Assembly (NCBI GenBank): GCA_025451535.1
Contig: JANWKE010000069.1
Location: 1 to 49,298 of the forward strand
Direction of reading: 5' to 3'
DNA from: Verrucomicrobiia bacterium
GTDB taxonomy: Bacteria > Verrucomicrobiota > Verrucomicrobiia > Limisphaerales > UBA11358
DNA: 49,298 bases
Part shown: one piece after another, positions 14,742 to 47,844 of the stretch
Position numbering within the stretch: the stretch's first letter is position 1
How the letters are laid out: each line of letters opens with the position of its first letter
Program-made: the position numbers and the translations under genes
The notes under the pieces: generated by a model
What the model was told of the DNA's origin: nothing
Databases searched by the model: none
Seen by the model: only the letters and a program-made list of their open reading frames with translations

Positions 14742-14817
14742 ATTCTGCTTTTTTTTAGTGCAATTGTCTTGTCATCAAAATCAACGAGTCGAAAAACTTG
14801 CTTTTTTTTGATAGCCT
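14742..14817. promoter_or_regulatory. Locus dyad J: two-way promoter between GH31 operon and sensor kinase
   Basis: The dyad at 14769-14790 reads GTCAT-CAAAATCA-ACGAG on the plus strand and CTCGT-TGATTTTG-ATGAC-AA on the minus strand. Exactly 21 nt away lies TAGCCT (14812-14817) on the plus side and CAGAAT (14747-14742) on the minus side. Both hexamers keep the important A2 and T6 of a -10 box. One activator site could therefore fire the kinase gene rightward and GH31-GH74 leftward. Confidence 0.55.
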
Positions 14818-14909
14818 CTCTACGGATGGCTGTTCCAAACCGGCTTTTGCGCATAAACCCAGAGAAATTGTCCTTGCGGGTTGTCTGGCCAGGCGGACAA
14901 AATTTGTCC

Positions 14910-17900
14910 ATGCTGCGCCGGAATCCGTTTGTCTTATGCCCTGCCTGGGTCATTCTGGCGACGGCCTGGTGGTTGGCGGGCAATGAATTTTCCGCGTCGG
15001 TTTCCGCCTCCCCCAACTACTTCGTCCGCTCGTGGCAGGCCGAACAAGGTCTGCCGCAAAACAAAGTCACGGCCATCGTACAGGATCACGATGGTTATTT
15101 GTGGGTGGGCACCTACAGCGGCTTGGCGCGATTTGACGGAGTGCGTTTTACCACGTTCGACGAGAACAACACACCGGCACTGCGCAGCAGTCGGATAACC
15201 AGTCTGTTTGAAACGGCGGATGGCGTGCTTTGGATTGGGGATGAGAGCGGCCAGATCACCCAATACAAAGACGGGCAATTCAAGACGGTGGAATTTCATC
15301 CAGCCTGGAGCGGCGGCAAGATTTACGATATTACATCCGATGGATCGGGCGACGTTTGGTTGTTGAACGAATCAGGCCAGTTGGCCCGTGTGAGCGATGG
15401 GCGGGTTTTGACTCCCGAAGCCGGCTCGGTGGCCAAATTGATCGATATGGCCCGATCTACGGTAGGAAAGATCTGGGTCGCGCGCGAGGGGCGGGTTTCC
15501 GTGCTGGACCAGGGCCGGGTACACGCACCGCATGTCGAATGGGCCGATAGCGGAGCTTACCCGTATGTTCAGGGGATTGGCGCCAGCCGGGACGGTGGAC
15601 TTTGGGTGGCCAGTGACGGACGCATTCGGAAATGGAAGGATGACCAATGGGTTGAAGACCTCGGAAATGCCCCTTGGGGTGGCAGTCCGGTCACCCGCCT
15701 GTTGGAAACCCGAAATGGCGTCCTGGCGGCCGGAACGGCTGATGGCGGTCTTTTTCTGATGTTTCCGGGTCTAAACGAAAAGCCGTTGCACTTTGACCAT
15801 GCCAGTGGTTTTCCTTCAGACTGGATTACTTCCGTGTACGAAGACCGGGAAGGAAATCTTTGGGTAGGCACGGGTGGCGGCGGGCTTGTGATTCTGCGCC
15901 CGAATAATATTGAAGCGGTTTCGCCGCCGGACCAGTGGCAGGGTCGCGCCGTGCTGTCAGTTTGTCCCGGTCAGGAGGGTGCGCTCTGGATTGGAACCGA
16001 GGGTGCGGGTTTGTATCGGCTTCAAGACGGCAACTGGACGAATTTCGCCACCGCCCAGGGAATCCGCAATACCTACGTTTGGTCGTTGGCCGAGGACACC
16101 GAAGGCCGGTTATGGGCGGGTACCTGGGGTGGGGGCCTGTTTATGCGGAATGACGATCACTTCGAATACGCACCGGGAATGACTAATGTTAACATGCCGA
16201 TGCCCGCTCTCTTAAAGGCCCGCGACGGCGGCCTGTGGATTGGCACCGCCATCGGGCTGCTGCGTTATGAGGCGGGCAGGACCAATTGGTTCTCCGCGAG
16301 CGATGGGCAGCCGTTACGCGATGTGCGCACGGTGGCGGAAGACAACCAGGGTGCCGTGTGGTTCGGCATGGCGGGAGACGGGCTCGCCTGCCTGAAAAAT
16401 CATCTCATCGGGCAATTCCGGACAACCGATGGGCTTTCCAGCGATTTCATTGAATGCCTGCACTTCGACAAGGAGGGGGTGCTGTGGATCGGGACGTTTG
16501 GCGGTGGTTTGGACCGGCTTAAAAACGGGCATTTCGCTGTGATTAATCGCAAACAGGGATTGCCCAACAGCGTTATTGGCGACATTGAGGAGGATGACCG
16601 GGGTTTTTTTTGGATGAGTTCGCACGACGGCATCATTCGGGTCAGCGAGGCGGAATTGAATCGGTGTGCAGACGGAGCGATCAACGAGATCCATTGCCAG
16701 GCTTACGGCATCAACGACGGAATGCCGACCATCGAATGTTCCGAAGGATTGCAGCCGGCGGGATGCAAAACGCCCGACGGCCGATTGTGGTTTCCCACCA
16801 GCAAGGGGCTGGTGGCGGTGAACCCGTTGGATGTGGAGACCAATCTCCTCCCGCCACCGGTCCAGATCGAAACCATGCAGGTGGATGACCGTCCGGTTGC
16901 CCAGGTAACGTCTGGAGAGCCGATCAAGGTACCCCCGGGGCGGCATCGGTTCGAATTTCAATACACGGGTTTGAGTTTTGTTGATCCGGAGAAAGTGCAG
17001 TTTAAATGCCGCTTAAACGGTTTCGAGCCCGACTGGATCAACACGGGCACCAAGCGCACGTATAATTACAATTACATTCCACCGGGTAATTACTCGTTTC
17101 AGGTGATCGCCTGCAACAACGATGGCGTTTGGAATGAGAACGGCGCAAGCATCGCCTTCAGTGTGCAGCCCTATTTCTGGCAGACGTTATGGTTCCGCAT
17201 TTTGGCCTGGGTTGCTATCATCACGGCCAGCGGCGGATTGGTCTGGTTCGACACGCGCCGCCGAATGCGGCGAAAACTCGAACGCCTTGAATGGCAGCGG
17301 GCGGTGGAACACGAGCGCGCGCGAATTGCGCATGACATTCATGACGACCTGGGTGCCCATCTGACGCGCATCAGCATGCTGAGCGAATCGGCCCGCGCGG
17401 AGCTGGACAATCCGGAACTGGCCATGGCCGGCCTTGATCAGATTTATGATACGGCCCGTGGCTTGACGCGGGCCATGGATGAAATCGTCTGGGCAGTCAA
17501 TCCCCGGCATGACACCCTGGAGGGTCTGGCCAGTTATCTGGAGAAATTCGCCCAGGATTTGCTGGCGGCGGCCGGGATCCGTTGCCGGCTGGACATGCCC
17601 ATGGAATTGCCTGACTGGCGGCTGACGGCCGATGTGCGCCACAACTTGTTTCTCGCCTTTAAAGAAGCTTTGCACAATGTGGTCAAACATTCCGGGGCGA
17701 CGGAGACTTCCATCCGGCTCGCCACTGGGGCCACTTCCTTTGAGCTGATTGTCGAGGACAATGGCTGCGGTTTCGCGCCGGGCGCAACCCGGAAAACCCT
17801 GCTTGACGATTCAATCCGCCTTTCAACCGGAAATGGTTTGGAAAACATACGGCGCCGGCTGGCGGAGATTCACGGAATCTGCAGCATTGAATCCGTGCCG

Positions 17901-17954
17901 GGACGAGGCACCAAGGTCATCTTCAGCATGCCGCTCAAAACGGTCGCCGCGTAG
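14910..17954 (+). CDS. Two-component sensor histidine kinase with beta-propeller sensor
   Basis: From ATG 14910 the protein has 1014 residues; the frame opens upstream at a TTG (14769) and an ATG (14826), but these lie in or just past the operator/promoter, so 14910 is preferred. Layout: signal/anchor (WVILATAWWLAGNEFSASVS), then a long run of Reg_prop propeller repeats (LWVGT.GGGL, LWIGTFGGGL) to about residue 590. A Y_Y_Y domain follows at 680-752 (RFEFQYTGLSFVDPEKVQFK...NYIPPGNYSF), then one TM at about 758-778 and a HisKA_3 dimerisation domain with phospho-acceptor His811 in IAHDIHDDLGAHL. The protein ends with an HATPase_c domain (VEDNGCGFAPG, GNGLENIRRRL). It would sense a glycan fragment in the periplasm, as do related HTCS sensors, but has no receiver or output domain of its own; the NarL-type regulator at 25491 is the obvious partner. 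Confidence 0.9.
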   Translation: MLRRNPFVLCPAWVILATAWWLAGNEFSASVSASPNYFVRSWQAEQGLPQNKVTAIVQDHDGYLWVGTYSGLARFDGVRFTTFDENNTPALRSSRITSLFETADGVLWIGDESGQITQYKDGQFKTVEFHPAWSGGKIYDITSDGSGDVWLLNESGQLARVSDGRVLTPEAGSVAKLIDMARSTVGKIWVAREGRVSVLDQGRVHAPHVEWADSGAYPYVQGIGASRDGGLWVASDGRIRKWKDDQWVEDLGNAPWGGSPVTRLLETRNGVLAAGTADGGLFLMFPGLNEKPLHFDHASGFPSDWITSVYEDREGNLWVGTGGGGLVILRPNNIEAVSPPDQWQGRAVLSVCPGQEGALWIGTEGAGLYRLQDGNWTNFATAQGIRNTYVWSLAEDTEGRLWAGTWGGGLFMRNDDHFEYAPGMTNVNMPMPALLKARDGGLWIGTAIGLLRYEAGRTNWFSASDGQPLRDVRTVAEDNQGAVWFGMAGDGLACLKNHLIGQFRTTDGLSSDFIECLHFDKEGVLWIGTFGGGLDRLKNGHFAVINRKQGLPNSVIGDIEEDDRGFFWMSSHDGIIRVSEAELNRCADGAINEIHCQAYGINDGMPTIECSEGLQPAGCKTPDGRLWFPTSKGLVAVNPLDVETNLLPPPVQIETMQVDDRPVAQVTSGEPIKVPPGRHRFEFQYTGLSFVDPEKVQFKCRLNGFEPDWINTGTKRTYNYNYIPPGNYSFQVIACNNDGVWNENGASIAFSVQPYFWQTLWFRILAWVAIITASGGLVWFDTRRRMRRKLERLEWQRAVEHERARIAHDIHDDLGAHLTRISMLSESARAELDNPELAMAGLDQIYDTARGLTRAMDEIVWAVNPRHDTLEGLASYLEKFAQDLLAAAGIRCRLDMPMELPDWRLTADVRHNLFLAFKEALHNVVKHSGATETSIRLATGATSFELIVEDNGCGFAPGATRKTLLDDSIRLSTGNGLENIRRRLAEIHGICSIESVPGRGTKVIFSMPLKTVAA

Positions 17955-22703: not shown

Positions 22704-23483
22704 CAATACCGTTCGAGCACCAACGGCAGCACCAGTTGGAACAACACAACCGGCCTGAGCGCACCCTGCTGGGTCATGCTGGTGCGGAGCGGAAGTGCCT
22801 TCACTGGATATCGTTCCTCCGATGGCACGAACTGGACGCAGCAAGGAACCACGAACATTACCATGTCGTCCAACGTGTACGTTGGTTTGGCCCTGACCAG
22901 TCACAACAGTTCGAGCCTCGGTACCGCCACATTTGACAACGTAACGGTCCCCGGCTGGCCGGCTTCAACTCCGCCGGTGCTGGCGGCTATTTCCAATTAC
23001 ACCGTGAACGTCGGCCAGACGGTGGCCTTCACCGCCAGTGCCACGGACACCAACCAGCCGCCGCCGACACTGACATTCAACCTGTTGACGGCGCCGACCA
23101 ATGCGACTTTAACTGCGACCACAGGTGCCTTTTCGTGGCGGCCGTTGGTTACACAGGCCAATTCGACGAACAAATTCACGCTGAAAGTCTCGGACAACGG
23201 CACGCCCAGCCTGAGCGCGACACAGAGTTTCATGGTGGCGGTGAATCCCCTGACAGCGCCATTGCTGACGCCGACGAACTGGAATAACGGGCAACTGACG
23301 CTTCAAGTCAGCGGCGAATCCGGCCCGGATTACGCGGTGTTGGGCTCAACCAATCTGATTGACTGGGTCACATTATTTACAACCAATTCGCCGCCGATGC
23401 CGTTTAATTGGGTTGTCACAACTAATACCGCTGCGTTACCGATGCAATTTTATCGCATAAAAGTCGGCCCACCGTTGCCGTGA
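22704..23483 (+). pseudogene. Distal part of the GH5 gene beyond the amber codon
   Basis: In the same frame as the GH5 gene, directly after TAG, the sequence reads QYRSSTNGSTSWNN and completes the beta-sandwich. It then has a cadherin-like domain (AAISNYTVNVGQTVAF) and the common tail ending [11 protein letters not shown]. In the homologous domain of the 18078 protein the equivalent stretch is GVSFQWRS, here GVT-stop-QYRS. It is either expressed by readthrough or suppression, or decaying, or the stop is a sequence error. The frame is otherwise undamaged over 260 codons. Confidence 0.85.
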
Positions 23484-25490: not shown

Positions 25491-26198
25491 ATGGTAGAAG
25501 AACTTAAAAGCATTGACGAAGTGAGCATCACGGTTTCCATCGTTGAAGACGATGCCCCGGCGAGGGGCATGCTTGCCAACTGGATTCACCGGGCGTCGGG
25601 TTTCCGGTGCGCGGGCCGATACAGCAGCGCAGAGGCCGCTTTGGCCGCCCTGCCCGCCGAAAAGCCGGCGGTGGTTTTGATGGACATCAACTTGCCGGGC
25701 ATTAGTGGCATCGAATGTGTGCGCCAGCTCAAACCAATGCTGCCGAACACACAGTTTGTAATGCTCACCGTCTATGAAGACGCCGATCATATTTTCAATG
25801 CGCTGGCTGTTGGCGCCAGCGGTTATTTATTGAAGCGGGTGTCCCGCGGGGAATTATTGGAAGCCCTCCTGGACGTTCATGCCGGCGGTTCGCCCATGAG
25901 CAGCAATATTGCGCGTAAAGTCGTTCAATCGTTTCTAAGACCGGCCCTGCAATCTTCTGAAGCGGTGGAACTTTCTCCCCGCGAACGGGAGGTTTTGGAA
26001 TTGCTGGCCCGGGGTTATCTCTACAAGGAAATAGCTGAATCGCTCCGAATCAGCATTCCGACCGTAAATACCTACATCCGACGAATTTACGAAAAATTGC
26101 ATGTCCGCTCCCGTTCCCAGGCTGTAGCTAAATTTACCCATGTTCCGGGTGTCGCTGAGGCCGGGGCGGCGCGAGGTACCCCTGAAAAACGGTCATAA
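25491..26198 (+). CDS. NarL/FixJ-family response regulator, likely activator of the locus
   Basis: This 235-residue protein has a receiver domain at about 11-130: acidic VEDD, phospho-acceptor Asp65 in VLMDINLPGISG, switch residue Thr in MLTVYED, and Lys in YLLKRVS. A LuxR-type HTH follows at about 160-215 (LSPREREVLELLARGYLYKE, IAESLRISIPTVNTYIRRIY). It lies inside the glycan locus 7.5 kb from the only sensor kinase, whose HisKA_3 core is the type that pairs with NarL regulators. Dimeric HTH proteins of this class bind short dyads, so it is the best candidate for the twelve GTCRT-N8-AYGAC sites. No such site precedes its own gene, suggesting constitutive or separate control. Confidence 0.92.
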   Translation: MVEELKSIDEVSITVSIVEDDAPARGMLANWIHRASGFRCAGRYSSAEAALAALPAEKPAVVLMDINLPGISGIECVRQLKPMLPNTQFVMLTVYEDADHIFNALAVGASGYLLKRVSRGELLEALLDVHAGGSPMSSNIARKVVQSFLRPALQSSEAVELSPREREVLELLARGYLYKEIAESLRISIPTVNTYIRRIYEKLHVRSRSQAVAKFTHVPGVAEAGAARGTPEKRS

Positions 26199-26310: not shown

Positions 26311-27066
26311 ATGAAAAAACTTGTATGCTTATCAATCGGAATGCTGGCATTTGCGTTGCAACCCTTTGCAAATGCCCAAAGTCTTCCTGCACCTACCACG
26401 TTGTTCACCACCTACGACGACTTTTCGACATTTTCAGCGGGTTGGGGAGCCGCCCCGACGGCTGTTAATACCTTCAGCACGGATGCCAGCACCGTCAACG
26501 GTATTGCCAATCCCACGGCCCCTGGTGGAGCCGGCACATCAGGCGCCCTCTTGATTAACGCAGGCGTCGGTGCCACCGGTGGTCTTTGGACAGACGCAGC
26601 CACTGCTCCCAGCCCCAGCGGATTTGCGGCAGTAAATGCCTTTGATCCTGGATATGATTCAGTTAACGGCCTGACGAGCGCTGCTCACGGCGAATTCTAT
26701 ATTGACTACTCTCTGCCGGACAACGAAGGCGGCACCTATTTCGGAGTGGGCGTTCTTGTCCAATACGCCGGGAACGGCTATTTTGGAACGTGGTTTCAAA
26801 ATTCAGCGGTGGATTTGGGCTACACTGAACCTACTTACGGCGAGGAAGTCTATCGGGCCACAATTCCGTACACGGTTACCGCGGGCGGCGGCATCGGTGG
26901 GTATGGTTTTGGCGTCATGTTGAGCACCGATTATCAATCCGCGCTGCCCTTCTATGTGGACAATATTTCGGTTGCGGCGGTTCAAGACACTCCCGAGCCC
27001 GGTACCATCGCGCTGATCAGTCTGGGTTTGGCGGGTTTAACCATAATTCGTCGTCGGCAAAGTTGA
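26311..27066 (+). CDS. PEP-CTERM sorted exported protein, unknown function
   Basis: This 251-residue protein has a signal peptide (MKKLVCLSIGMLAFALQPFA, cleavage after ANA). Its middle is a low-complexity-free beta-rich domain with YDDFSTFSAGW and FYVDNISVAAVQ, resembling jelly-roll carbohydrate-binding folds. The C-terminal sorting signal has PEPGT, a hydrophobic stretch (IALISLGLAGLTII) and RRR. PEP-CTERM proteins are processed by exosortase and are linked to exopolysaccharide in known systems (established knowledge). Membership in the dyad regulon suggests a role at the surface during glycan use. A good terminator follows. Confidence 0.82.
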   Translation: MKKLVCLSIGMLAFALQPFANAQSLPAPTTLFTTYDDFSTFSAGWGAAPTAVNTFSTDASTVNGIANPTAPGGAGTSGALLINAGVGATGGLWTDAATAPSPSGFAAVNAFDPGYDSVNGLTSAAHGEFYIDYSLPDNEGGTYFGVGVLVQYAGNGYFGTWFQNSAVDLGYTEPTYGEEVYRATIPYTVTAGGGIGGYGFGVMLSTDYQSALPFYVDNISVAAVQDTPEPGTIALISLGLAGLTIIRRRQS

Positions 27067-30102: not shown

Positions 30103-31023
30103 ATGCGAACATTCAAAGTCTCCAAGCTGCGCCTGACTCCGGGCGCAGCCTGGATAACTCGTGGGTTTACGTTGATTGAATTGCTGGTGGTCATCGCCAT
30201 CATCGCCATTCTGGCTGCCATGTTGTTGCCGACGCTGGCCAAGGCAAAGCTGTCCGCCCAGCGCGCCTCATGCATAAACAACCAGCATCAGCTGACGCTG
30301 GCATGGATGATGTACCCGGATGATAACCATGGCCAACTCGTCCCGAATTATTCAATCAGTGTGCCCGAGTTTAACACACCGGGTTGGGATGGTAAGGCGA
30401 ATAATATGTGGTGGGGCACCGTTCCCATGAACACCACCGGCTGGCTTCTGGTCACCAATGGCGATGGGCTGTTTGGTGGATATTTGAGTCGTCAGTCCCG
30501 GGTCTTTCAATGCCCGGGCGACAGAACTGCGGAACGGAATGGGAGTATCCGGGTACGGAGTATTTCCATGAATGGGATGATGAATGGTTATGACTCATCG
30601 CAGTATCTCAATGGCGTTATACGCAACCAGGGAACTGGGCCACGCGGAGGAACCACCAGCGGCTATCGACTTTATGATACGTACAGTTCGATCATCAACC
30701 CGCGGCCTTCCATGGCTTGGGTTTTCATTGATGAGCATGGCAATTCGATAAATGACGGGTTCTTTTGTGTTGAGTTGCTGGGTAATTTGCCTAATGGTTC
30801 CGGGGGGTATGCCGGGATAGGGTGGTATGATTTGCCAGCCAGTTATCATGGCGCATCCGGGGTCTTGTCTTTTGCCGACGGCCATGCAGAGGTTCATGTG
30901 TGGACCGACCCTTGGGTCCGCGATCATCCCGTCACCCCATATGGGCCGGGCAGCGGCTTCCATACCGGCAACGGCTACCCTGACCTGGCTTGGTTGCAGG
31001 CGCGCACCACTGCCCTGCACTGA
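30103..31023 (+). CDS. Prepilin-like protein (H-X9-DG type)
   Basis: From ATG 30103, 10 nt after the LamG gene, the protein has 306 residues; an in-frame start at 29995 would overlap that gene and is rejected. The motif [20 protein letters not shown] lies at about residues 23-42, then helix [20 protein letters not shown]. Near the end is [20 protein letters not shown], the H-X9-DG motif. Family members are processed pilin-like proteins whose globular part faces outward. It differs from the tandem pair at 23525-25334 in its whole globular part, so it was not copied from them recently. Confidence 0.88.
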
Positions 31024-31112
31024 CGCTTGAACTTCCATCGTGGGACCCCGCCGCAATCGTTGACTGGCGGCCGGGGCGCGGAGCGCAATTCCTCCAGGAG
31101 CGATCTGAAGCC

Positions 31113-31159
31113 GTCGTAGATTTTGACGACATGGATTCTTCGGTTCGGTTCTATATTCT
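31113..31159 (+). promoter_or_regulatory. Locus dyad D with -10 box, ahead of GH2 relic
   Basis: Dyad GTCGTAGATTTTGACGACAT (31113-31132) is followed by exactly 21 nt and TATTCT (31154-31159). It is intact although the gene it served is now only a 5' fragment. Confidence 0.78.
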
Positions 31160-31167
31160 GTGAGTTT

Positions 31168-31365
31168 ATGAAATCTCCGCTGATCTCGGCAGTCGTCGCG
31201 TTGTTGTTTTGCGCAAACGGAAAATGAAAACTAATTCACTGTCCCGCGCTCTCTTCGCCGTTGCGTGCGCCGCGTTGTTGACTACGCAGCTTGCCGTCGC
31301 TGATTCGCCGCGTGAACACCTCTCGCTCGACGCGGACTGGAAATTTCATCTCGGCGACGATTGGC
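31168..31365 (+). pseudogene. Relic: 5' end of a second GH2 beta-galactosidase gene
   Basis: ATG 31168 encodes MKSPLISAVVALLFCANGK and then stops at TGA, which overlaps ATG 31224 in another frame. That second frame reads ALFAVACAALLTTQLAVADS, then PREHLSLDADWKFHLGDDW, almost identical to LREHLSLDANWKFHLGDDW at the start of the intact GH2 gene (33592). Homology ends abruptly after GDDW at 31364. The relic retains its dyad, its -10 box and the same very short distance from -10 to ATG as the intact gene. Confidence 0.85.
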
Positions 31366-31560
31366 ATTTTTCAAACCGAAGAACAGCCAGTTTTCTTTGC
31401 CAAGTGGCCCGGATCGCGTTCTCAACCAGTGGTTGTCTGTCCCCACTTGGCTGTGTTCCAGGAAGCGTTGCAGCTCCGGCACTGGTTTAATGTATAGTCC
31501 AACACGAGGAAAGCCTATGTTCGTGTCCGGAAAAGTGGGGAGAGGAATCAAATCAGTAAC
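31366..31560 (-). mobile_element. Degenerate IS66-type transposase C-terminal fragment
   Basis: The minus strand reads PVPELQRFLEHSQVGTDNHW, then LRTRSGPLGKENWLFFGLKN. This matches the C-terminal end of IS66 TnpC, where W-L-RFL-...-NN-E-RP-LG-KNWLF-G is conserved; the Glu of the usual ENS/ERA motif is missing, so it is not active. It abuts the point where the GH2 relic stops, so an insertion followed by deletion probably truncated that gene. No terminal repeats were recognised. Confidence 0.6.
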
Positions 31561-31565
31561 CAGGC

Positions 31566-32537
31566 TTACGGTCCATTTACGGTCCACATTCCTGCAGGAT
31601 TGGCCAAGGTTCCGCTGCCGACGGTGTCTTCGATGGCGAAGGCTTGGACGTGGCCGTCGCAGAACAGATAGTTGAACCGGTTGCCTTGCGCCTTGTACAA
31701 CAGATTCCCTTGATTGGGGTCTGTTACCGATCCGCGTGGGCTTGCTTGGGTTTTATCGGTCTGGTAAAGCTCATTCGGACTTTGGGAATAAGGTCCCAGG
31801 CAAACGCAGGTCCAGACGTTGCCTTCGAACTGCTGATTATGAGTATTCTCCACAAGCAACAAACCGGAAGAGGGATGACGGACCACAGAAGTCGGATAGC
31901 CGGGCGCATTCCAATCGATCGTCTTTTTGCTGGTCCAGTAGATGCCCACGCCATGGGCGCCAGGCTGGCTCAAACTGGGCAAGGAGTAACCGTTATCGGC
32001 GGATACCTGCCATTGGCTGCCCCAACCCGGCCCCACGCCATTCATGGCATAGGATCTCAAACCGAGCGCCACTGTTGGGATCCATTGCAGTTTGGGAAAT
32101 CGGTCGGCGGGACAGGCCAGAACCTTGAGTGCCGGCGCAAGACTATACTCTGCGGCCAGCCCCGGGTCTTGCACATAAACGCCGGACATCAGCTCGGACT
32201 GCGGCATATTGGCGCCGCCTACGTAATTATAAATCCAGGTGTCCCAGCTTAACTGCCCGTCGGCGGCCGCAAGGCCGGCGGCCGGGTATCGGTTGTGGTG
32301 GTCACCAGGAAACATGTTCAAAGCCAGTCCCAGTTGGCGCATATTGGAGGCGTCTTGAATCCGCAACGCCTTGGCCTTGGCCGCCGCGAGCGCCGGGAGC
32401 AGCAGGGCGGCCAATATGGCAATAATGGCAATGACCACCAGAAGCTCAATCAAGGTAAATCCCGTCTCATTGCGGCACCCGCTTGTCAGACCTTCGGCAA
32501 CTTCAGCAACGCTTGTTTTTGGATTTGCAGTTTTCAT
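31566..32537 (-). CDS. Prepilin-like protein (H-X9-DG type)
   Basis: This 323-residue protein has a 26-residue hydrophilic leader, then [20 protein letters not shown], then helix [20 protein letters not shown]. The C-terminal motif is [18 protein letters not shown]. It is second in a minus-strand unit, 7 nt after the small Pro-rich gene at 32545-32952, under dyad K. As with the other three intact pilin genes it is the distal partner of an exported protein. The leader before the cleavage Gly is long but within the range of pseudopilins of this phylum. Confidence 0.88.
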
Positions 32538-32544
32538 GGCACCT

Positions 32545-32952
32545 TTATCGGTTCTCCAGGCTCACGAGTCCTCTGCTATCAATGATGTATTTTCTACCTG
32601 GCGGCGGCGGCGGAATCTGAAAGCCGGCGCTGGCGGCAAATTCTTCAAAACTGGAAGGCTGCCGCCGATTGTGGACACTCCAAATGATCAGCGCCCGGTT
32701 TATCGCGCGCAAATCCGGCGCCGCATTCGTGGCGGTGGCCGGCGCCGGCATTGAAGCGATGATCGGCGGTGTCGGCGCCGCAGAGGTTGGTGCGGCAGCC
32801 TGCGGCGTGGCTGGCAGGGTGGTTGCCGCGGTGTCGTTTTTCCTGCTGCAACTGCCACAAAGCAGCGGTAGCGCCAGAGCCAGTGCCACACCCGTCGCGA
32901 GGAGGTCAAATCGCCAACCTGCGGACCGGCGAAAGTCCGAAATTAGTTTCAT
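32545..32952 (-). CDS. Small exported Pro/Ala-rich protein, possible lipoprotein
   Basis: From ATG 32952 (AAGGG 5-9 nt upstream) the protein has 135 residues; a start at 32973 would lie inside the -10 box and is rejected. It has a hydrophobic signal ([19 protein letters not shown], weak lipobox), an Ala/Pro/Thr linker of about 45 residues and a compact C-terminal domain ([20 protein letters not shown] ... [15 protein letters not shown]). The end domain resembles short modules seen in other Verrucomicrobiota exported proteins, in my recollection, but I cannot name a family. It lies directly upstream of a pilin gene in the dyad K unit, so it may help assemble or anchor the pilin. Confidence 0.72.
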
Positions 32953-32971
32953 GCCCTTACAGATTTGATTC

Positions 32972-33020
32972 AAAATAGACCTTAGTGGCTGAACTTAAAA
33001 GTAGTCAAAAGTAACGACAT
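32972..33020 (-). promoter_or_regulatory. Locus dyad K with -10 box, promoter of lipoprotein-pilin unit
   Basis: The minus-strand dyad GTCGTTACTTTTGACTAC (33018-33001, plus TT) is followed by exactly 21 nt and TATTTT (32977-32972). Predicted start is about 32965, leaving a 13-nt leader with AAGGG before ATG 32952. Confidence 0.7.
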
Positions 33021-33537
33021 GGGACGCAAGACCGTTGTTGCCACATTGTCGAATTGGCTGGAAGGCAGAAAAATCCCGGTAATCGAACATGGGGACGAGA
33101 TACCGTGAAACTTTGCATAACCAGGCCGCCCGAGCGATGGTCGGCCGGTGGGGGACGCAAGTTCCCCAAGCCGCTCATTCGTTGAGCGTTGAGAACAAAA
33201 GATGCCATGCTTGAAACAAGTAACGCTGAACTGGCCAATCAATACCGGGCCGCTGCGGGGTCCAGTCGGAGCGGCTCGTTGGGCCGAACGTTTGCAGGTG
33301 CTGGAGCGGGACATGGTTCTCCAAGACCATGTTCAATCCGTCGCGGATTGGGTGACTGAGCAGTGAGCCGATCCAGCGTTGCACATTGGCGCTCAAACGA
33401 ATTTCCCGGCATAAGCCAGCTAGGTTCAAAATTCCCCTGCAGCGTCGGCCAATTCAATGGCACCGTTGCGGTTTTGAGAAGAGTCGCTTCCTTGCCCAAA
33501 TGGGAATTCGCCATCTGCAATCCGCAATTTGGAACGT
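33021..33537. other. Intergenic region between dyads K and E
   Basis: This stretch separates the minus-strand lipoprotein-pilin unit from the GH2 unit. All frames on both strands are short, mutually contradictory and rich in Arg and Pro. None shows a signal peptide or family motif. It may hold a dispersed intergenic element, but I cannot prove this. Confidence 0.4.
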
Positions 33538-33584
33538 GTCATGGATTTTAAGGACATGGATTCTCCGGGTTCCTGCCTTATCCT
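33538..33584 (+). promoter_or_regulatory. Locus dyad E with -10 box, promoter of GH2-GH29 unit
   Basis: Dyad GTCATGGATTTTAAGGACAT (33538-33557) is followed by exactly 21 nt and TATCCT (33579-33584). The GH2 ATG begins at 33592, only 7 nt after the hexamer, so the message would be leaderless or nearly so. This dyad is less symmetric than A-D. Confidence 0.72.
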
Positions 33585-33591
33585 GTTGCTC

Positions 33592-36498
33592 ATGAAAGAT
33601 CCCCTGTTGTCGCCATTTGCCAGGTCGCTGGTCCGCACTCTGGTCGCGGGTGCATGCGCCATGTTTCTGGTCACCCAGGTTTTTGCCGCCGACTCGCTGC
33701 GCGAACATCTCTCGCTCGACGCGAACTGGAAATTCCATCTCGGCGACGACTGGCCGGACGCGCTGCATCTGGAAAACTCCGGCACCGGTTCCGGGCCGGC
33801 GTCGGAAAGATTCTCAGACGCTTACTGGCGCGTGGTCAATCTGCCGCACGATTGGGCGGTTGAATTGCCATTCGACCAATCTGCCGATGGCAGTCATGGT
33901 TTCAAGGCTCTGGGAGTGAAATATCCGACGAACAGCATCGCCTGGTACCGCCGTACATTCGAGTTGCCGAAGGCGGGTGAGGGCAGACGCATCTGGCTGA
34001 CGTTCGACGGGGTGTTTCGCGACGCGACGGTGTGGGTCAACGGCTGGTGCGTCAGACATCACGAGGGCGGTTACTATCCATTCCGCGAGGACATTACCGA
34101 TGTGGTGCATTTCGGCGGGCAGAACACGATTTCCGTGCGCGTGGACGCGACGAAAACCGAGGGCTGGTTTTACGAGGGTGCGGGCATCTACCGCCATGTC
34201 TGGCTGGACGAGACCGCGCCGGTGGCCATCGCCCCGGACGGGATTTTTGTGTCGCCGCATTTTGAAAAAAACATTCCGCAAGGCAGTCCTGAAATCGCAG
34301 TCGAAGTCCGCCTGCTCAACACCACCACCCACGCGGCGAAAGCCACGGTGGATTGCGAAATCATTTCGCCCGACGGCAAATCGTTGAAAAATTTCTCCGA
34401 ATCGACAGATTTAAAACGCGAATCGAAAGGCGCGGTAAAATTGGAATCGAAACTTTTCCGGCCCGTCCTTTGGTCGCCGGAATCGCCCAACCTCTACCAG
34501 CTGGTCACGACGGTTTTCGTCGCGGACAAACTCGTTGACCAGGAGAAAACACCCTTTGGCATCCGCACCGTGGGCTTTGACCCGGCGAACGGCTTTTTGT
34601 TGAACGGCAGGCATTACGAACTTTACGGCACCTGCAATCATCAGGACCACGCCGGCGTCGGCGCGGCCATCCCGGATGCGTTGCAGGAATTCCGCGTGGA
34701 GCAACTGAAGAAATTTGGCTGCAACGCCATCCGCACCTCGCACAATCCGCCCACGCCGGAATTGCTCGACGCCTGCGACCGGCTCGGCATGTTGGTGATG
34801 AACGAGAGCCGGTTGATGGGCGGCGATTCGGAGAACATGAAAAAGTGGGACAGCCAGATCCGCCGCGACCGCAATCATCCGAGCGTCGCGATCTGGAGCA
34901 TCGCCAACGAGCAATTCATGGTGCAGGACACGCCGCAGGCCGCCAACGTCGCGCGCACGATGCAGGATTACGCCAAACAACTCGACCCGACGCGGCCCGT
35001 CACTTACGCGTCGCCGGAAGACGACGTGTTTCGTGGCATCAATTCGGTCATCGAAGTGCGCGGCTGGAATTACCACTACGGTCCCCGAATGGACAGGTAT
35101 CACGCCGAGCATCCGGACCAGCCGAACGTCGGCACCGAGCAGGCCAGCGTCGTCGGCGACCGCGGCATTTACGCGAATGATCAGGAACACGGTTACGTCG
35201 CCGCCTACGATGTGGTCTGGCCGGGCTGGACGACGACCGCCGAGAGCTGGTGGAGCTTCTTCGCCGTGCGTCCCTGGCTTTCCGGCGCCTTCGTGTGGAC
35301 CGGCTTTGATTATCGGGGCGAGCCGACGCCCTATTGGTGGCCGTGCGTCAACTCGCACTTCGGCATCCTCGACACTTGCGGTTTCCCGAAGGACGTTTTT
35401 TACTACTACAAATCGTGGTGGACGACGAACACCGTGCTGCACCTGTTGCCGCATTGGAACTGGCCCGGCCGGGAAGGGCAGGACATCCTCGTCCAGGTCT
35501 TCAGCAATTGCAAACAGGTGGAACTCGTTTTGAACGGCCTGTCGCTCGGCAAACAGACAATGAAACCGAATTCGAAATTGAGCTGGCATGTGAGATATGA
35601 GCCCGGAACATTGAGTGCGAAAGGTTTTGACGGCGCCGGCAACGTCGTTGCCGAAACGAAAGTGGAAACCACCGGCGAGGCCACGCAAATTCAACTCACG
35701 CCCGACCGCAAGACCATCAACGCCGACGGCGAGGATGTGAGCGTGTTTACCGTGGCCGCGCTGGACGCGCAAGGCCGCGTGGTGCCGGTGGCGCAAAACA
35801 AAATCAATTTCAGCCTCGAAGGCGCCGGCAGGATCCTGGGCGTGGGCAACGGCGACCCCAGTTGCCATGAGCCGGACACGTTCGTCCCGAACGTGCCGGA
35901 GCGCAATGTCGCCCTGAACGACTGGCGCTGGCAGCTGGCAAAAGTCCCGCACAACCGCAGCGTCCTGCCGGAATACGCGGATGATTTTGACGACTCGGCG
36001 TGGACAAATGTGAACGCCCAAACCAGCGGCGGCGAATTGACGATCAAAGCGCCGGACACCACGGCGATTTACCGCGCTCATTTCACGCTGACGGACGAAG
36101 ACTTGAAAGGTGAAGGCGTGCAAATCTGCTTCTCAGGCTGCGACGACGAGGGCTGGTATTTTGTGAACGGCGAGTTTGTTGGGGAATCGCATGACTGGCA
36201 GGCGCGACCGATTTTCGACATTAAAAAATTTGTCCACGCCGGCGACAACGTTGTTGCTGTGGGGGTCTACAACGGCGTGGGCTCCGGCGGTTTGAATCCC
36301 AATGTGAACGTCAAAACCTTTGGGAACGCCGGCGTTCCGCCGTGGTCCCGCAGCCTGTTCAACGGCCTGGCGCAAATCATTGTGCAATCCACACGTGAGG
36401 CCGGCGAATTCAAATTGACCGCCAGTTCCGAGAGTCTCAAACCGGCCACGGCAACGCTGCAAACGCAACCGTGCGCGCCGCGTCCGGCTGTGCCGTGA
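33592..36498 (+). CDS. GH2 beta-galactosidase-type enzyme
   Basis: From ATG 33592 the protein has 968 residues; the frame is open upstream to 33529, but that would cross the promoter. The signal peptide begins MKDPLLSPFARSLVRTL and ends VFAAD. A GH2 sugar-binding domain (LREHLSLDANWKFHLGDDW, NLPHDWAVELPF) and Ig-like domain precede the barrel, with acid/base Glu440 in SIANEQF and probable nucleophile Glu516 in GTEQAS. A DUF4982-like Ig module follows, then a galactose-binding-like insert at about 770-920 (DDFDDSAWTNVN, WYFVNGEFVGES), then the closing REAGEFKLTASSESL. It would remove beta-1,2-galactose from xyloglucan side chains. First gene of the unit with GH29. Confidence 0.9.
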   Translation: MKDPLLSPFARSLVRTLVAGACAMFLVTQVFAADSLREHLSLDANWKFHLGDDWPDALHLENSGTGSGPASERFSDAYWRVVNLPHDWAVELPFDQSADGSHGFKALGVKYPTNSIAWYRRTFELPKAGEGRRIWLTFDGVFRDATVWVNGWCVRHHEGGYYPFREDITDVVHFGGQNTISVRVDATKTEGWFYEGAGIYRHVWLDETAPVAIAPDGIFVSPHFEKNIPQGSPEIAVEVRLLNTTTHAAKATVDCEIISPDGKSLKNFSESTDLKRESKGAVKLESKLFRPVLWSPESPNLYQLVTTVFVADKLVDQEKTPFGIRTVGFDPANGFLLNGRHYELYGTCNHQDHAGVGAAIPDALQEFRVEQLKKFGCNAIRTSHNPPTPELLDACDRLGMLVMNESRLMGGDSENMKKWDSQIRRDRNHPSVAIWSIANEQFMVQDTPQAANVARTMQDYAKQLDPTRPVTYASPEDDVFRGINSVIEVRGWNYHYGPRMDRYHAEHPDQPNVGTEQASVVGDRGIYANDQEHGYVAAYDVVWPGWTTTAESWWSFFAVRPWLSGAFVWTGFDYRGEPTPYWWPCVNSHFGILDTCGFPKDVFYYYKSWWTTNTVLHLLPHWNWPGREGQDILVQVFSNCKQVELVLNGLSLGKQTMKPNSKLSWHVRYEPGTLSAKGFDGAGNVVAETKVETTGEATQIQLTPDRKTINADGEDVSVFTVAALDAQGRVVPVAQNKINFSLEGAGRILGVGNGDPSCHEPDTFVPNVPERNVALNDWRWQLAKVPHNRSVLPEYADDFDDSAWTNVNAQTSGGELTIKAPDTTAIYRAHFTLTDEDLKGEGVQICFSGCDDEGWYFVNGEFVGESHDWQARPIFDIKKFVHAGDNVVAVGVYNGVGSGGLNPNVNVKTFGNAGVPPWSRSLFNGLAQIIVQSTREAGEFKLTASSESLKPATATLQTQPCAPRPAVP

Positions 36499-38196: not shown

Positions 38197-38290
38197 AAGC
38201 GAATTCATGTAGAGCTCTTAATTGTAGTCTTTTCTTAACATGTGATCTGGATTTGTGAATCGGGCGCCCGCGACGGCAATTGTCATCAGT

Positions 38291-38336
38291 GTCGTGGTTT
38301 TTGACGACATTCATTTCAGTAAAAAGGGTGTATCTT
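38291..38336 (+). promoter_or_regulatory. Locus dyad C with -10 box, promoter of GH5-GH3-GH27 unit
   Basis: Dyad GTCGTGGTTTTTGACGACAT (38291-38310) is followed by 20 nt and TATCTT (38331-38336). Predicted start is about 38343, leaving about 32 nt before ATG 38375. Confidence 0.78.
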
Positions 38337-38374
38337 TTGTCGAATTAATATCGCACATCCTCTTGAGTAAAATC

Positions 38375-41059
38375 ATGAACGCCATCATTCGCAGCGTTTT
38401 ATTCCAATTTCTCATCGCCGGCCTGGCCGGCGGTTTATCCGCCCAAACTACCCAAGGCAACACGAACATTCCCGATTCGATGCCGCTCCCGATACCCACC
38501 TACGGATGGAATCTGGGAAACACATTGGAAGCCACTTGGGGAGTGCCGAGTTGGACTGCGGCGGTGTTCAACACGGCCGCCGGCGCCGGGTTCAACGCCG
38601 TTCGCATCCCGTGCGCCTGGGATTTCAATTCCACCACTAACATCAGCGGCGGAGTCACCAATTACGTGATTAACCCCGCTTTCATGGCGCAGGTCAAACA
38701 GGCCGTTGACGACGCGATCGCGGACGGAATGTATGTCGTCGTCATCGACCACTGGGACGACGGCTGGCTGGAGAACAACATCGGCACCAATGTGAATCCC
38801 GTCATCAACGCGAAGATGAAGTCCTATTGGACGCAGATCGCCACCAATTTTGCCGGCTACGACAACCACTTGCTTTTTGCCGCGGCGAACGAACCAAACG
38901 TGAACAATACTGCGGAAGAGGTCACGTTGATGTATTATTATCAGACGTTCGTCAATGCGGTCCGCGCCACCGGTGGCAACAACACCAATCGCTGGCTGGT
39001 GCTGCAAAGCGTATCGGACCCGACGTGGCTGAACGCCTTGCCAACGGACACGGTTTCCAACCGACTGATGGTCGAATATCATCAGTATACGCCTTCTCTG
39101 TTTACGATCATTCACACCGATCAAACGTGGGGCACTGCGATTTACTTCTGGGGGCCGGCTTACCATTATTCGGGAGACCCAACCCGCAATGCCACCTGGG
39201 GTGAAGAATATGACATAGATTCGTTCTTTCAACAGCTGACCGACTTGTATGTCAGCAGAGGCATTCCGGTCATGATCGGCGAATTCGGGGCGTATACGTC
39301 GCCTCTGACCGGAACGGAGGCGACGTGGAATAGTGATTCCGTGTATTATTGGAACAAGTATGTGGCCGAATCCGCCCGCGGCCACGGACTCAGTCCCTTC
39401 TATTGGAGCACACCGAACAGTCCGTTCGACTGGACCTCGGGCGCCGTCACTGACGCACGACTTATTTCCGTATTGACTGGCGGAGCCGCGCCTCCGCCGC
39501 CCAACGGTGCTCCGTATGCCGCATCTGGTCTTACCGCGACGGGAGGCACGAGCCAGGTAATTTTATCCTGGACTGCCGGCAGCGGAGCGACCAGCTACAA
39601 TCTTTACCGCGCGACACAGAGCGGTTCTGAGAGTTCGATCTCACCCGTCGTTACTGGCATCACCGGCACATCCTATACCAATACCAGCCTCAACAGTGGC
39701 ACCACCTATTACTATCAGGTCGCCGCCGTCAACGGTTCCGGCTCGTCAGGTTTTTCGCCTGAAGCTCACGCGACGACGTCCGGCGTCATCGCCGACCCGG
39801 CGCAATTCAACTTCGAATCCAGTTCGCAAGGTTGGACCGGGGGCGGCGGCATCGTTTCCGGCGTCGCGACTTCAACCGTCCAGCATTATGCCGGCAATCA
39901 GTCGCTGGCCGTGAACTTCAATGGCTCATCCGCGGGCACCGCGTCTCCGTCCGTGGGCAACGTGGCTGTCGTGCCGGGCACGACAATTACCTTTCATGTC
40001 TGGATTCCCAGCGGCAGCAAGGTGACGGCGCTCCAACCGTATCTGCAAGACCACAACTGGACGTGGACTAGCAGCTGGTATCCAAGTCTGACGGCTAATG
40101 CGTGGAACACGATTACCGTAACCGTGCCGACGAACGCCGCCTCACCATTACAGGCTCTCGGCGTTCAATTTATCACGAGCGCCGGCTGGACGGGCACCTG
40201 TTACATTGATTCCGTTTCATATAGCAACCCCGTGCCGGACTTCAACCTGGCGGCGAATCCCACCAGCCTGACAGTGAACGGCGGAACGAACGGCGCAAGC
40301 ATCATCACGGTGACTCCAACCGATGGCTTGAACGCTTGCTATACGTTGAGCGCAAGTAATCTCCCAGCCGGAGTTACAACCGCGTTTGCCGCGAATCCAA
40401 CCACCGGCGGTGACACCGCGCTGACGCTCACGGCATCCAATACCGTAACTTCCGGCACATCGAATGTGACCGTCATCGTCACCGCAGGATTGATTAGTCA
40501 TACGACGACCATCGCCCTCACGCTGAACGCGGTCACGCCGCCCAACACGCCGCCCACGCTGGCGCCTATTGGCAACCAGACCGTGAACGTCGGCCAGGCG
40601 GTTGCGTTTACCGCCAGCGCCACCGACACCAACCAGCCGCCGCAGACGCTGACGTTCGCATTACTTGCCGGTGCGACGAATGCCACGCTCAACTCCAGCA
40701 GCGGCGCGTTCTCATTCCGCCCGCTTGTAACACAGGCGAATTCGACAAATAATTTCACTTTGGAAGTTTCCGACAACGGCACGCCGCCTCTCAGCGCCAC
40801 GCAGAGTTTCTCGATCATGGTGAATCCGCTTACTGCGCCGACGGTCAGCAATGTTTCAGCCGCAGGCGGACTGTTCGGTTTCAGCGTCAGCGGACAGAAC
40901 GGACCGGATTACGCGGTGGAAACCTCGACCAATCTCACGCAATGGAGCACCGTCTTCGTCACCAATTCGCCCACGCTGCCGTTCAATTGGACGGATACGA
41001 ATTCACCTGCCGCATCGCAGCGATTCTACCGCGTCAAACTCGGTCCACCGCTGCCGTAA
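38375..41059 (+). CDS. GH5 endo-glucanase/xyloglucanase, multidomain
   Basis: From ATG 38375 the protein has 894 residues; in-frame upstream codons would cross the promoter. Signal peptide MNAIIRSVLFQFLIAGLAGG. The GH5 barrel has YGWNLGNTLEATWG, HWDDGWLENN, acid/base Glu173 in AANEPN, and nucleophile Glu303 in MIGEFGA. Then FN3 (about 375-465, SYNLYRATQSGSESS), a carbohydrate-binding-like jelly roll (about 470-610, FNFESSSQGWTGGG ... CYIDSVSY), an Ig-like domain, a cadherin-like domain (IGNQTVNVGQAVAF) and the tail ending FYRVKLGPPLP. The barrel is closely related to the amber-stopped GH5 at 21273, but the linked binding domains differ, so the pair may target different forms of the glycan. 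Confidence 0.92.
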   Translation: MNAIIRSVLFQFLIAGLAGGLSAQTTQGNTNIPDSMPLPIPTYGWNLGNTLEATWGVPSWTAAVFNTAAGAGFNAVRIPCAWDFNSTTNISGGVTNYVINPAFMAQVKQAVDDAIADGMYVVVIDHWDDGWLENNIGTNVNPVINAKMKSYWTQIATNFAGYDNHLLFAAANEPNVNNTAEEVTLMYYYQTFVNAVRATGGNNTNRWLVLQSVSDPTWLNALPTDTVSNRLMVEYHQYTPSLFTIIHTDQTWGTAIYFWGPAYHYSGDPTRNATWGEEYDIDSFFQQLTDLYVSRGIPVMIGEFGAYTSPLTGTEATWNSDSVYYWNKYVAESARGHGLSPFYWSTPNSPFDWTSGAVTDARLISVLTGGAAPPPPNGAPYAASGLTATGGTSQVILSWTAGSGATSYNLYRATQSGSESSISPVVTGITGTSYTNTSLNSGTTYYYQVAAVNGSGSSGFSPEAHATTSGVIADPAQFNFESSSQGWTGGGGIVSGVATSTVQHYAGNQSLAVNFNGSSAGTASPSVGNVAVVPGTTITFHVWIPSGSKVTALQPYLQDHNWTWTSSWYPSLTANAWNTITVTVPTNAASPLQALGVQFITSAGWTGTCYIDSVSYSNPVPDFNLAANPTSLTVNGGTNGASIITVTPTDGLNACYTLSASNLPAGVTTAFAANPTTGGDTALTLTASNTVTSGTSNVTVIVTAGLISHTTTIALTLNAVTPPNTPPTLAPIGNQTVNVGQAVAFTASATDTNQPPQTLTFALLAGATNATLNSSSGAFSFRPLVTQANSTNNFTLEVSDNGTPPLSATQSFSIMVNPLTAPTVSNVSAAGGLFGFSVSGQNGPDYAVETSTNLTQWSTVFVTNSPTLPFNWTDTNSPAASQRFYRVKLGPPLP

Positions 41060-45672: not shown

Positions 45673-47844
45673 ATGACTATCAAACCGCTCTCCTTCCGTG
45701 CCGTCCCGCTCCTGTGGTTCCTGGCCCTTGCGTCGCCCGCACTCGCAAACGATGACATGTCAATCTTTTCCGGGGTGACCCAACTGAGCGAAAACAATGG
45801 ATGGGGGGATTGGGGCTGGGTGCCGCATTACATCACCAACAGCCCCGCCTGGAACGGCCACTATACGATGGTGATTGCCGCCAGTGGCGGAAATCAGGCG
45901 TGGTACATCCATCATGATTTGATTGATACGACGATCTACAGCAGCATCAGCTTCTGGCTGAACGGCGGCTCCAGCGGCGGGCAAGCTGTCGGGCTGCAGG
46001 CGCAGCAAGGTTCCGATTCAGGGCCTTGGGGTCCACGGATCAACGTCACCGCGCCCACCAATAGCTGGCAGCAATTCACATTTTCGCTCTCCGCGCTCGG
46101 CGTGAACAACACCAACTTGCAGGCGATTCAGATTTGGGGCACCGGCACGGCGCAACCCAGGTTCTACCTCGCCGATGTCCGGCTGGTGGCGGCGCCCGCC
46201 CCGGCCACGGTGCATGTGAGCGTTGGGTTGTCGCAAGCCCGGCAAACGGTCAATCCGGACATGCTCGGCGTCAACCAGGTCGCGTGGGATGGGGCCATAG
46301 CCACGCCAACGACCATCAGTCTGTTAAATGCCATGGGCAATCCCTGTCTGCGCTGGCCGGGCGGCAGTTGGGGTGATGGTTATCATTGGACCAATGAAGC
46401 GTGGAGTTACGGGAACACCAGCCCGCGCAACTGGGGATCGTTCTCCACCAACTTTATCCAGGTTGCCACGAACATACATGCCCAGGCTTTTATTATTGTC
46501 AATTACGGAACCAGTAGCCCCGAGGAAGCCGCCTGGGGCGTGCGCATGTTCAACCTTACGAACCACTGCAATTTCAAATACTGGGAGATTGGCAACGAAG
46601 TCGGCGGCAGTTGGGAGGTGGACAACAACACTAATTCGCCCTGGAAACCGCACGATCCCTGGACCTACGCCATGCGGTTCACGAATTATTACGCGCAAAT
46701 GAAAGCGGCGGACCCGACCATCCAGATCGGCGCAGTCGCCGACGTTACCGAGGACGGCACCTCGAATTACAATGATCATCCTGTCATCAACCCGCGCACG
46801 GGCGCGAAGCACTATGGTTGGACGCCCGTGATGTTGACCTATATGCGCAGCAACGATTGCCTTCCGGATTTCCTGATCGAACACATCTACGGGCCGGCCG
46901 ACGGCGACACGCAGGACCTGCTTTGGTACAGCAAGATTCAACCGGACGCCGTCAGCCTGCGCCAAATGCTGACAGATTACCTGGGCAGCGCGGGAAGCAA
47001 TGTCACCCTTGAATGCACCGAATGCGGTCTGGGCGGCGACCGGCAGACCGGCAGCCTCGTGGGCGGCCTGACCTATCTGGACAGCCTCGGCGAATTTTTG
47101 CAGACCGAGTTCCAGTCGCATATCTGGTGGGACTTCCGGAACGGACAAAGCGCTCTCAGCAGTTCGGACCCGTCTTACTATGGCTGGCGGACCAACTCCA
47201 GCGGCGCTTACATTGCTGACGGAGGCATCGTGGGCGGCTTGGGAGATGTCCCGAGTTCCTGTTACCCCACATATTATTGCGACAAGCTGGTGCCGCACTT
47301 TGTCAGTGGCGGCGACACAGTAGTCGCGGCCACGAGCGATTACCTGTTACTCGCCACCTACGCCGTGCGCCGGATGGACGGTGCCTTGAGCCTGCTGGTT
47401 ATCAACAAGAGCAGCTACACGAACCTGACAGTCGCCTTCAACCTGGCCGGCTACGTGCCTTCACCCGGCGCCACCACCTGGTCGTACGGCATCCCGCAGG
47501 ACAACGCGGCCGCAACCGGGATAGGCTCTTGCGATATCGCCCAGGGCAACTTCTCGAGCGCGGCGGCCAGCTTCAACTACACGTTCGCGCCTTTCTCCGC
47601 GACCGCCATCAATCTCGTGCCGACAGCGCCGGGGCTCACCGTGCTTCCGAGTCCATCCTCCGGCCAGTTCAGTTACCAATTACAGGGCTTGTCCGGTGTG
47701 CCGTACGTGATTCAATCGGCCACGGACCTGACTGCGGGAAACTGGATCCCGATCTCGACCAACACGCTCATCACTGCCACCCTGAATTTCACGAACAACA
47801 CATCGTCGTCAGCCGCATTTTATCGGGCTGTGTGGCAGCCGTAG
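45673..47844 (+). CDS. Secreted clan GH-A glycosidase (GH51/GH39/GH44-like)
   Basis: This 723-residue protein has signal peptide FRAVPLLWFLALASPALA. Residues 25-175 form a carbohydrate-binding-like jelly roll (WYIHHDLIDTTIYSSISFWL ... FYLADVRLV). A barrel follows with LRWPGGSWGDGYHW, acid/base Glu309 in KYWEIGNEVGG and a nucleophile Glu in LECTECGLGG (Glu450, or Glu447). A beta domain and a tail (YVIQSATDLTAGNWIPISTN, ending FYRAVWQP) close the protein. RWPGG and WEIGNE recall GH51/GH44-type enzymes; the TEC nucleophile context is unusual. It shares its general plan with the 18078 enzyme but is clearly diverged. Under dyad G, last gene of the locus. Confidence 0.78.
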   Translation: MTIKPLSFRAVPLLWFLALASPALANDDMSIFSGVTQLSENNGWGDWGWVPHYITNSPAWNGHYTMVIAASGGNQAWYIHHDLIDTTIYSSISFWLNGGSSGGQAVGLQAQQGSDSGPWGPRINVTAPTNSWQQFTFSLSALGVNNTNLQAIQIWGTGTAQPRFYLADVRLVAAPAPATVHVSVGLSQARQTVNPDMLGVNQVAWDGAIATPTTISLLNAMGNPCLRWPGGSWGDGYHWTNEAWSYGNTSPRNWGSFSTNFIQVATNIHAQAFIIVNYGTSSPEEAAWGVRMFNLTNHCNFKYWEIGNEVGGSWEVDNNTNSPWKPHDPWTYAMRFTNYYAQMKAADPTIQIGAVADVTEDGTSNYNDHPVINPRTGAKHYGWTPVMLTYMRSNDCLPDFLIEHIYGPADGDTQDLLWYSKIQPDAVSLRQMLTDYLGSAGSNVTLECTECGLGGDRQTGSLVGGLTYLDSLGEFLQTEFQSHIWWDFRNGQSALSSSDPSYYGWRTNSSGAYIADGGIVGGLGDVPSSCYPTYYCDKLVPHFVSGGDTVVAATSDYLLLATYAVRRMDGALSLLVINKSSYTNLTVAFNLAGYVPSPGATTWSYGIPQDNAAATGIGSCDIAQGNFSSAAASFNYTFAPFSATAINLVPTAPGLTVLPSPSSGQFSYQLQGLSGVPYVIQSATDLTAGNWIPISTNTLITATLNFTNNTSSSAAFYRAVWQP

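Follow-up and report, generated by a model that had tools for sequence, protein, structure and literature searches.

What is the promoter of a glycoside hydrolase gene doing, with its operator and its first codons, in front of no complete gene? At one place in the genome of a Verrucomicrobiia bacterium the 5' end of a GH2 gene stops abruptly beside a fragment of an IS66-family transposase gene, and an intact GH2 gene with a similar upstream region lies nearby. The truncated copy may have been copied from its neighbour, with the operator carried along, or it may be what is left of a second gene that once stood there.

The cluster and the truncated gene

The window (the whole stretch of 49,298 nucleotides analysed here) corresponds to contig C69 in a draft assembly of 4.4 Mb and 188 contigs, 97.89% complete with a contamination estimate of 4.76%. 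This genome is labelled G000, and comparisons were run across 59 genomes, its own included. By Pfam, the cluster encodes two GH31 and two GH5 enzymes, one each of GH29, GH2, GH3 and GH27, a Reg_prop/Y_Y_Y histidine kinase, a NarL/LuxR response regulator and several prepilin-like genes; two BNR/sortilin-type proteins can be read as probable GH74. The cluster would thus serve carbohydrate degradation, and its enzyme set fits xyloglucan, a substrate suggested by gene content. Xyloglucan utilisation loci of Bacteroidota are presumably similar, having in common with it GH31, GH5, GH2, GH3, GH29, a probable GH74 and a Reg_prop/Y_Y_Y sensor. Unlike in those loci, Pfam gave no SusC/SusD match in the 25 ORFs of the window that were scanned, the sensor and the response regulator are separate genes, and several prepilin-like genes are present. 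Three frames (18078-20942, 22776-23483 and 38255-41059) have in common a module of some 180-200 aa at the C terminus, with cross-matches at one place in the relative G022; we would guess that it is a secretion or anchoring tail.

Features of the window that bear on the truncated GH2 gene
Feature	Position	Strand	Evidence
Reg_prop/Y_Y_Y sensor histidine kinase	14769..17954	+	Pfam
NarL/LuxR-type response regulator	25491..26198	+	Response_reg E 1.8e-22, GerE E 7.1e-18
Putative operator palindrome of remnant, CGTCGTAGATTTTGACGACA	31112..31131	+	matrix score 21.0, outside the 7 training sites
-10-like box TATTCT, 22 bp past palindrome	31154..31159	+	TANNNT offset peak at 22
19-codon frame MKSPLISAVVALLFCANGK	31168..31227	+	first codons align with first codons of intact gene
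First 47 codons of GH2 (GalA type): signal peptide and mature N terminus	31224..31364	+	DNA homology to intact GH2
IS66 TnpC fragment, internal, frameshifted, around LVENAIR...GKENWLFFG	31375..31502	-	nhmmer E 1.2e-15
Prepilin-type gene (N_methyl, DUF1559), convergent, downstream of remnant	31566..32537	-	Pfam E 5.2e-9, 1.8e-6
Palindrome of intact GH2, one arm imperfect (TGTCAT/AGGACA)	33537..33556	+	matrix score 20.0; G022 counterpart 20.0
Intact GH2, beta-galactosidase GalA type, 968 aa	33592..36498	+	NF041462, Pfam GH2 domains

The intact GH2 clears the curated NF041462 cut-off (1043.4 bits against 900). Of the other copy there is a 5' end. A sequence-only reading of this DNA had described a dyad, a -10 box and the start of a GH2 gene, and all of these are found at 31112-31364: the palindrome, the 22 bp, TATTCT and 47 GH2 codons. 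The residues that it quoted as the first codons are really codons 26-45, which come after the signal peptide. They belong to an 88-aa frame (31224-31490) whose residues 1-47 are GH2, ending ADSPREHLSLDADWKFHLGDDW, and whose remainder is unrelated sequence. The stop of the preceding short frame, MKSPLISAVVALLFCANGK, overlaps the GH2 start at 31224 (ATGA); the intact GH2 has no such frame. That reading also placed an intact GH2 at a distance of 2.4 kb, with much the same 5' arrangement, and this is borne out: the two palindromes are 2425 bp apart, the DNA is 77% identical over 130 bp (33625-33754 in the intact gene, E 1.6e-21) and the promoter regions are 71% identical over 79 bp.

Among the matches listed to the GH2 genes of relatives, homology breaks off at 31359-31368, mostly at 31365. 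The truncated copy is without the GH2 sugar-binding and catalytic domains, since homology ceases past codon 47. In all, 30900-31650 has matches in 25 of the 59 genomes (own included); GH2 5' ends make up most of the matches listed, and some cover only flanking prepilin sequence. On its sequence, then, 31112-31364 is a gene remnant and not a GH2 enzyme.

The first ATG lies 7-8 bases past the -10-like box both in the intact GH2 (33579-33594) and in the remnant (31154-31170). If that box is used, a leaderless or near-leaderless message would follow for both. On another contig, the 3' part of a GH2 gene, 59% identical, runs off the contig end (G000:C23:3958-5259) and represents a further paralog. 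As it stops at the contig edge, it could conceivably be the missing body of the remnant, but nothing links the two.

The palindrome and its -10 box

A matrix was built from seven palindromes of the window, with neither GH2 site in the training set. At a score of 14.8 or above it finds 12 sites in the window, the seven training sites and five others (31112, 33537, 33000, 14770 and 9771); at a cut of 9 it finds 15, against a mean of 1.96 and a maximum of 7 in 50 block-shuffled windows. Apart from the two GH2 sites, palindromic 20-mers stand near most genes of the cluster (9771, 14770, 17979, 21140, 26208, 27285, 33000, 38176, 38290 and 45569). The arms are perfect in the remnant and imperfect in the intact GH2.

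Eight of the 12 sites have counterparts in G022 when paired by orthologous gene: those at the kinase/GH31 divergence, at GH5 21234, at 26311 and 27360, at the divergent 32545-32973, at GH2, at GH5 38255 and at 45673. The four without a counterpart are 31112 and 17979, where the DNA or the gene is absent from G022, one of 38176/38290, and 9771. Of five sites in a second relative, G020, four precede its homologs of the response regulator, 26311, 27360 and 32545-32973; the fifth, which is weaker, lies between the kinase and GH31 genes. In the window itself no scored palindrome stands directly before the response regulator gene. The gene at 26311-27066, whose palindrome is kept in both relatives, encodes a short protein with a PEP-CTERM motif.

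At several palindromes of the cluster a -10-like box follows 22 bp downstream. Among 50 sites scoring at least 16 in the loci compared, some of them homologous to one another and chance sites included, TANNNT occurs at an offset of 22 in 23 of 100 flanks, at 21 in eight, and elsewhere in four at most. The exact combination of palindrome, 22 bp and TANNNT is met five times in the genome, with none in the reversed control; four of the five are in the window, the remnant's among them. Over the 59 genomes there are 18 matches, in 11 genomes, against three in the reversed control. The intact GH2 site misses the exact pattern because one of its arms is imperfect. With its many sites, its conservation in relatives and its fixed spacing to the -10 box, the dyad looks real as a sequence pattern. 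The one exact match of the genome beyond the window is at G000:C158:5863-5909.

Two other definitions of the motif were tried and rejected. The exact string GACATGGATTC has three matches in the genome, of which the third is on a different contig, immediately beyond a frame on the minus strand that resembles a prepilin gene; the palindrome is the unit. The bare pattern GTCRTN8AYGAC, taken as a genome-wide regulon, gives 58 matches against 15 in the reversed control. Nine of the 58 are in the window, and many of those listed outside it have GC-rich centres.

A scan of 31000-31700 for promoters of the sigma-70 type found none, and therefore the -10 box has no consensus -35 partner; no terminator-like site was found in the same interval. 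If TATTCT is the -10 box, the centre of the palindrome would lie near -45, a typical place for activators that touch RNA polymerase. The response regulator at 25491-26198 is a candidate for the protein that binds there, the two being linked by co-occurrence. A limited literature search met no description of an operator of this kind (20-bp palindrome, 22 bp, -10 box). Paralogous pairs of kinase and response regulator are found at G000:C61:2999-6715 (L139) and G022:C22:3540-7230 (L134), with identities of 54-55% and 68-70%. A weaker palindrome precedes the regulator gene in both pairs, and the G022 pair adjoins genes related to 31566 and 32545 of the window.

Descent of the two genes and of the IS66 scrap

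From the palindrome to 31180, the remnant and the intact GH2 align with a score of 38, and the best of 500 mononucleotide shuffles reaches 23. Past the palindrome alone (31131-31223), the score is 28 against a shuffle maximum of 26; again none of 500 reaches it. Upstream of the palindrome no similarity is detectable, 168 of 500 shuffles reaching the observed score. Descent from a common ancestor of operator, promoter and 5' end together is thus supported, and to this extent we agree with the sequence-only reading, which held that operator and 5' end were duplicated together.

That the neighbour was a recent source is not supported. A tree built from 24 GH2 5' ends pairs the intact gene with its G022 ortholog at a support of 0.993. 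The remnant falls outside, beside the G010 sequence at a support of 0.53 only, a position drawn from 141 bases with few sites. The 5'-end identities are 87.6% for the intact gene and G022, 77.3% for the remnant and G010, 76.7% for the remnant and the intact gene, and 69.5% for the remnant and G022. The GH2 start of the remnant lines up with the starts in G010, G026, G032, G008 and G021. That ATG is missing from the intact gene and from G022, both of which begin at the ATG next after the promoter; the remnant has both ATGs. Separation of the two lines before the split of G000 and G022 is thereby supported. Gene conversion of the intact GH2 is a possible way in which an old split might be mimicked.

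Over the last 22 codons the remnant and the intact gene differ by six synonymous and two amino-acid changes, a pattern suggesting that both genes were working during most of their separation. Over all 47 codons, aligned ungapped with the signal peptide included, there are 16 amino-acid and 12 synonymous changes, so that the pattern is no more than suggestive.

The sequence-only reading proposed to look for the uninterrupted locus in relatives. G022 is collinear on both sides (30449-31012 at 67%, 31484-33050 at 78% and 33454-36498 at 82%), but holds no GH2 at this place. The gap between the first two blocks is 471 bp in the window and 226 bp in G022. Neither a GH2 remnant nor, by nhmmer, IS66 is detectable in the G022 gap, and 216 bp of it have no match at E <= 0.05 among the other sequences fetched. 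Since G022 is collinear without a GH2 remnant and the remnant stands outside the pair of intact gene and G022 ortholog, a second GH2 probably predated the split of the two species and afterwards disappeared, apart from its 5' end.

A full GH2 at the exact position of the remnant was not found in the relatives compared. In G020 the gene order follows the window up to the prepilin gene, then comes a p18078-like gene and no GH2; its Ig-like protein is 63-64% identical to the window's. In G008, G026 and G032 a palindrome and a large Ig-like protein are followed by GH2, with three prepilin-like genes before the GH2 in G008. From this the remnant might mark the ancestral position of GH2. The order in these three looks like that of the window, but their Ig-like proteins share only 27-29% identity with the one encoded there, and G020 has no GH2.

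The scrap beside the remnant had been described as a degenerate IS66 transposase end on the opposite strand. Family, strand and degeneracy hold, but the piece is internal to TnpC. A model of the TnpC region, built from seven relatives' regions (seven of 20 fetched IS66 loci had a usable stretch), finds the scrap at E 1.2e-15 and has its next match in the window at E 1.4, and blastn against the 20 loci gives a best E of 9e-5, with 71% over 77 columns. Like IS66-family TnpC (PF03050), the scrap carries, in some 130 bases of similar DNA, the region of the conserved NLVENAIRP..GKKNWLF stretch; unlike it, the scrap is an internal, frameshifted piece without IS ends and is not a transposase. Gaps shift the frame, so that parts read in three minus frames and no transposase frame is open, and the translated scrap has no match above the reporting limits of Pfam or NCBIfam. 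IS ends are not to be expected because the fragment is internal to tnpC, and neither these nor a target-site duplication remain to mark an insertion. The genome itself has no PF03050 match at E <= 0.001, and 26 of the 59 genomes have one. In the plasmid collection neither the scrap nor the G022 interval was matched. G022 has in common with the window a stretch that takes in the outer 19 bp of the scrap (31484-31502), and therefore an IS66 insertion predating the species split is possible.

Did the regulon spread by such joint copying, as had been suggested? The evidence for this is weak. The flanks of seven other palindromes of the window align with the remnant's at scores of 11-17, with shuffle means of 12-14; none is clearly alike, as 14 to 193 of 200 shuffles reach the scores (the nearest is 27285, with 14 of 200). 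No scored palindrome stands directly before the GH2 orthologs of G010, G026, G032 and G008. In the last three a scored palindrome sits before a gene upstream of GH2, and the GH2 of G021 has a palindrome with a different flank. Operators have therefore also been gained, lost or kept apart from the GH2 5' end. Copying of the operator jointly with the gene would be one route, seen once and not established as general.

Probable loss of a second gene, or copying of a fragment

We think it quite likely that 31112-31364 represents what is left, at the 5' end, of a second GalA-type GH2 which split from the intact line before G000 and G022 parted and whose body was then lost. As the scrap alone would suggest, an IS66 element probably inserted in or beside this second gene. 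A deletion would then have run from GH2 codon 48 into tnpC, and the rest of the GH2 would have gone with it, as would the right end of the IS66. With palindrome and 22-bp spacing kept, the orphan promoter may still respond to the two-component regulator of the cluster; if active, it would give rise to a short transcript that heads for the convergent prepilin gene (31566-32537) but yields no enzyme.

The absence of any trace of a GH2 body beside the remnant, and of a GH2 at this place in G022, would suit a partial duplication, in which only the front part of the intact GH2, promoter included, was copied to this place and a second full gene never existed. The copy would have to be an old one, as the remnant lies outside the well-supported pair of intact gene and G022 ortholog and differs from the intact gene at 23% of its DNA; so old a dead copy should be more damaged than this one, whose 47 codons are open and whose last 22 show the six-to-two pattern. 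We regard such a duplication as unlikely. Much less probable still is an artefact of assembly, by which the GH2 5' end of a foreign strain or species was joined into the contig. The number of contigs in the draft and its contamination estimate make one think of it, but both flanks are collinear with G022, the contig continues for 31 kb on the left and for 18 kb on the right, and no donor is found, the best full-length match in the 59 genomes being 78% over 146 bp (72-bp parts reach 90%).

It could also be argued that the remnant has been kept for use, as a sugar-inducible transcript or an 88-aa secreted peptide that tunes the convergent prepilin gene from its 3' side. Perfect palindrome arms, an exact promoter layout, a signal peptide on the 88-aa frame and the lack of a terminator-like site at 31000-31700 speak in its favour. 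Yet the remnant is missing from G022, the one collinear relative, and a recent break accounts equally well for its good state, so we give this idea a very small chance. The loss of a second gene remains our preferred reading, and what it leaves is an ordinary decayed paralog with a promoter that may still work.

Decayed paralogs beside IS scraps are known in bacterial genomes. The remnant resembles them in that the 5' end of a gene is cut off beside a degenerate transposase fragment; it differs in that its promoter survives with the exact spacing of the regulon. In itself it is ordinary: sugar-degrading clusters gain and lose paralogs, and the breaks are often marked by scraps of transposase genes. 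It is useful as a marker in two ways. It points to a GH2 paralog that arose before two species split and has since been lost, and it points to an operator (the 20-bp palindrome, 22 bp and -10 box) that accompanies a two-component pair in a lineage not yet cultured. The operator is a more useful lead than the remnant. Should the two-component pair indeed bind this operator, both the regulon and the sugar to which it responds would be directly testable.
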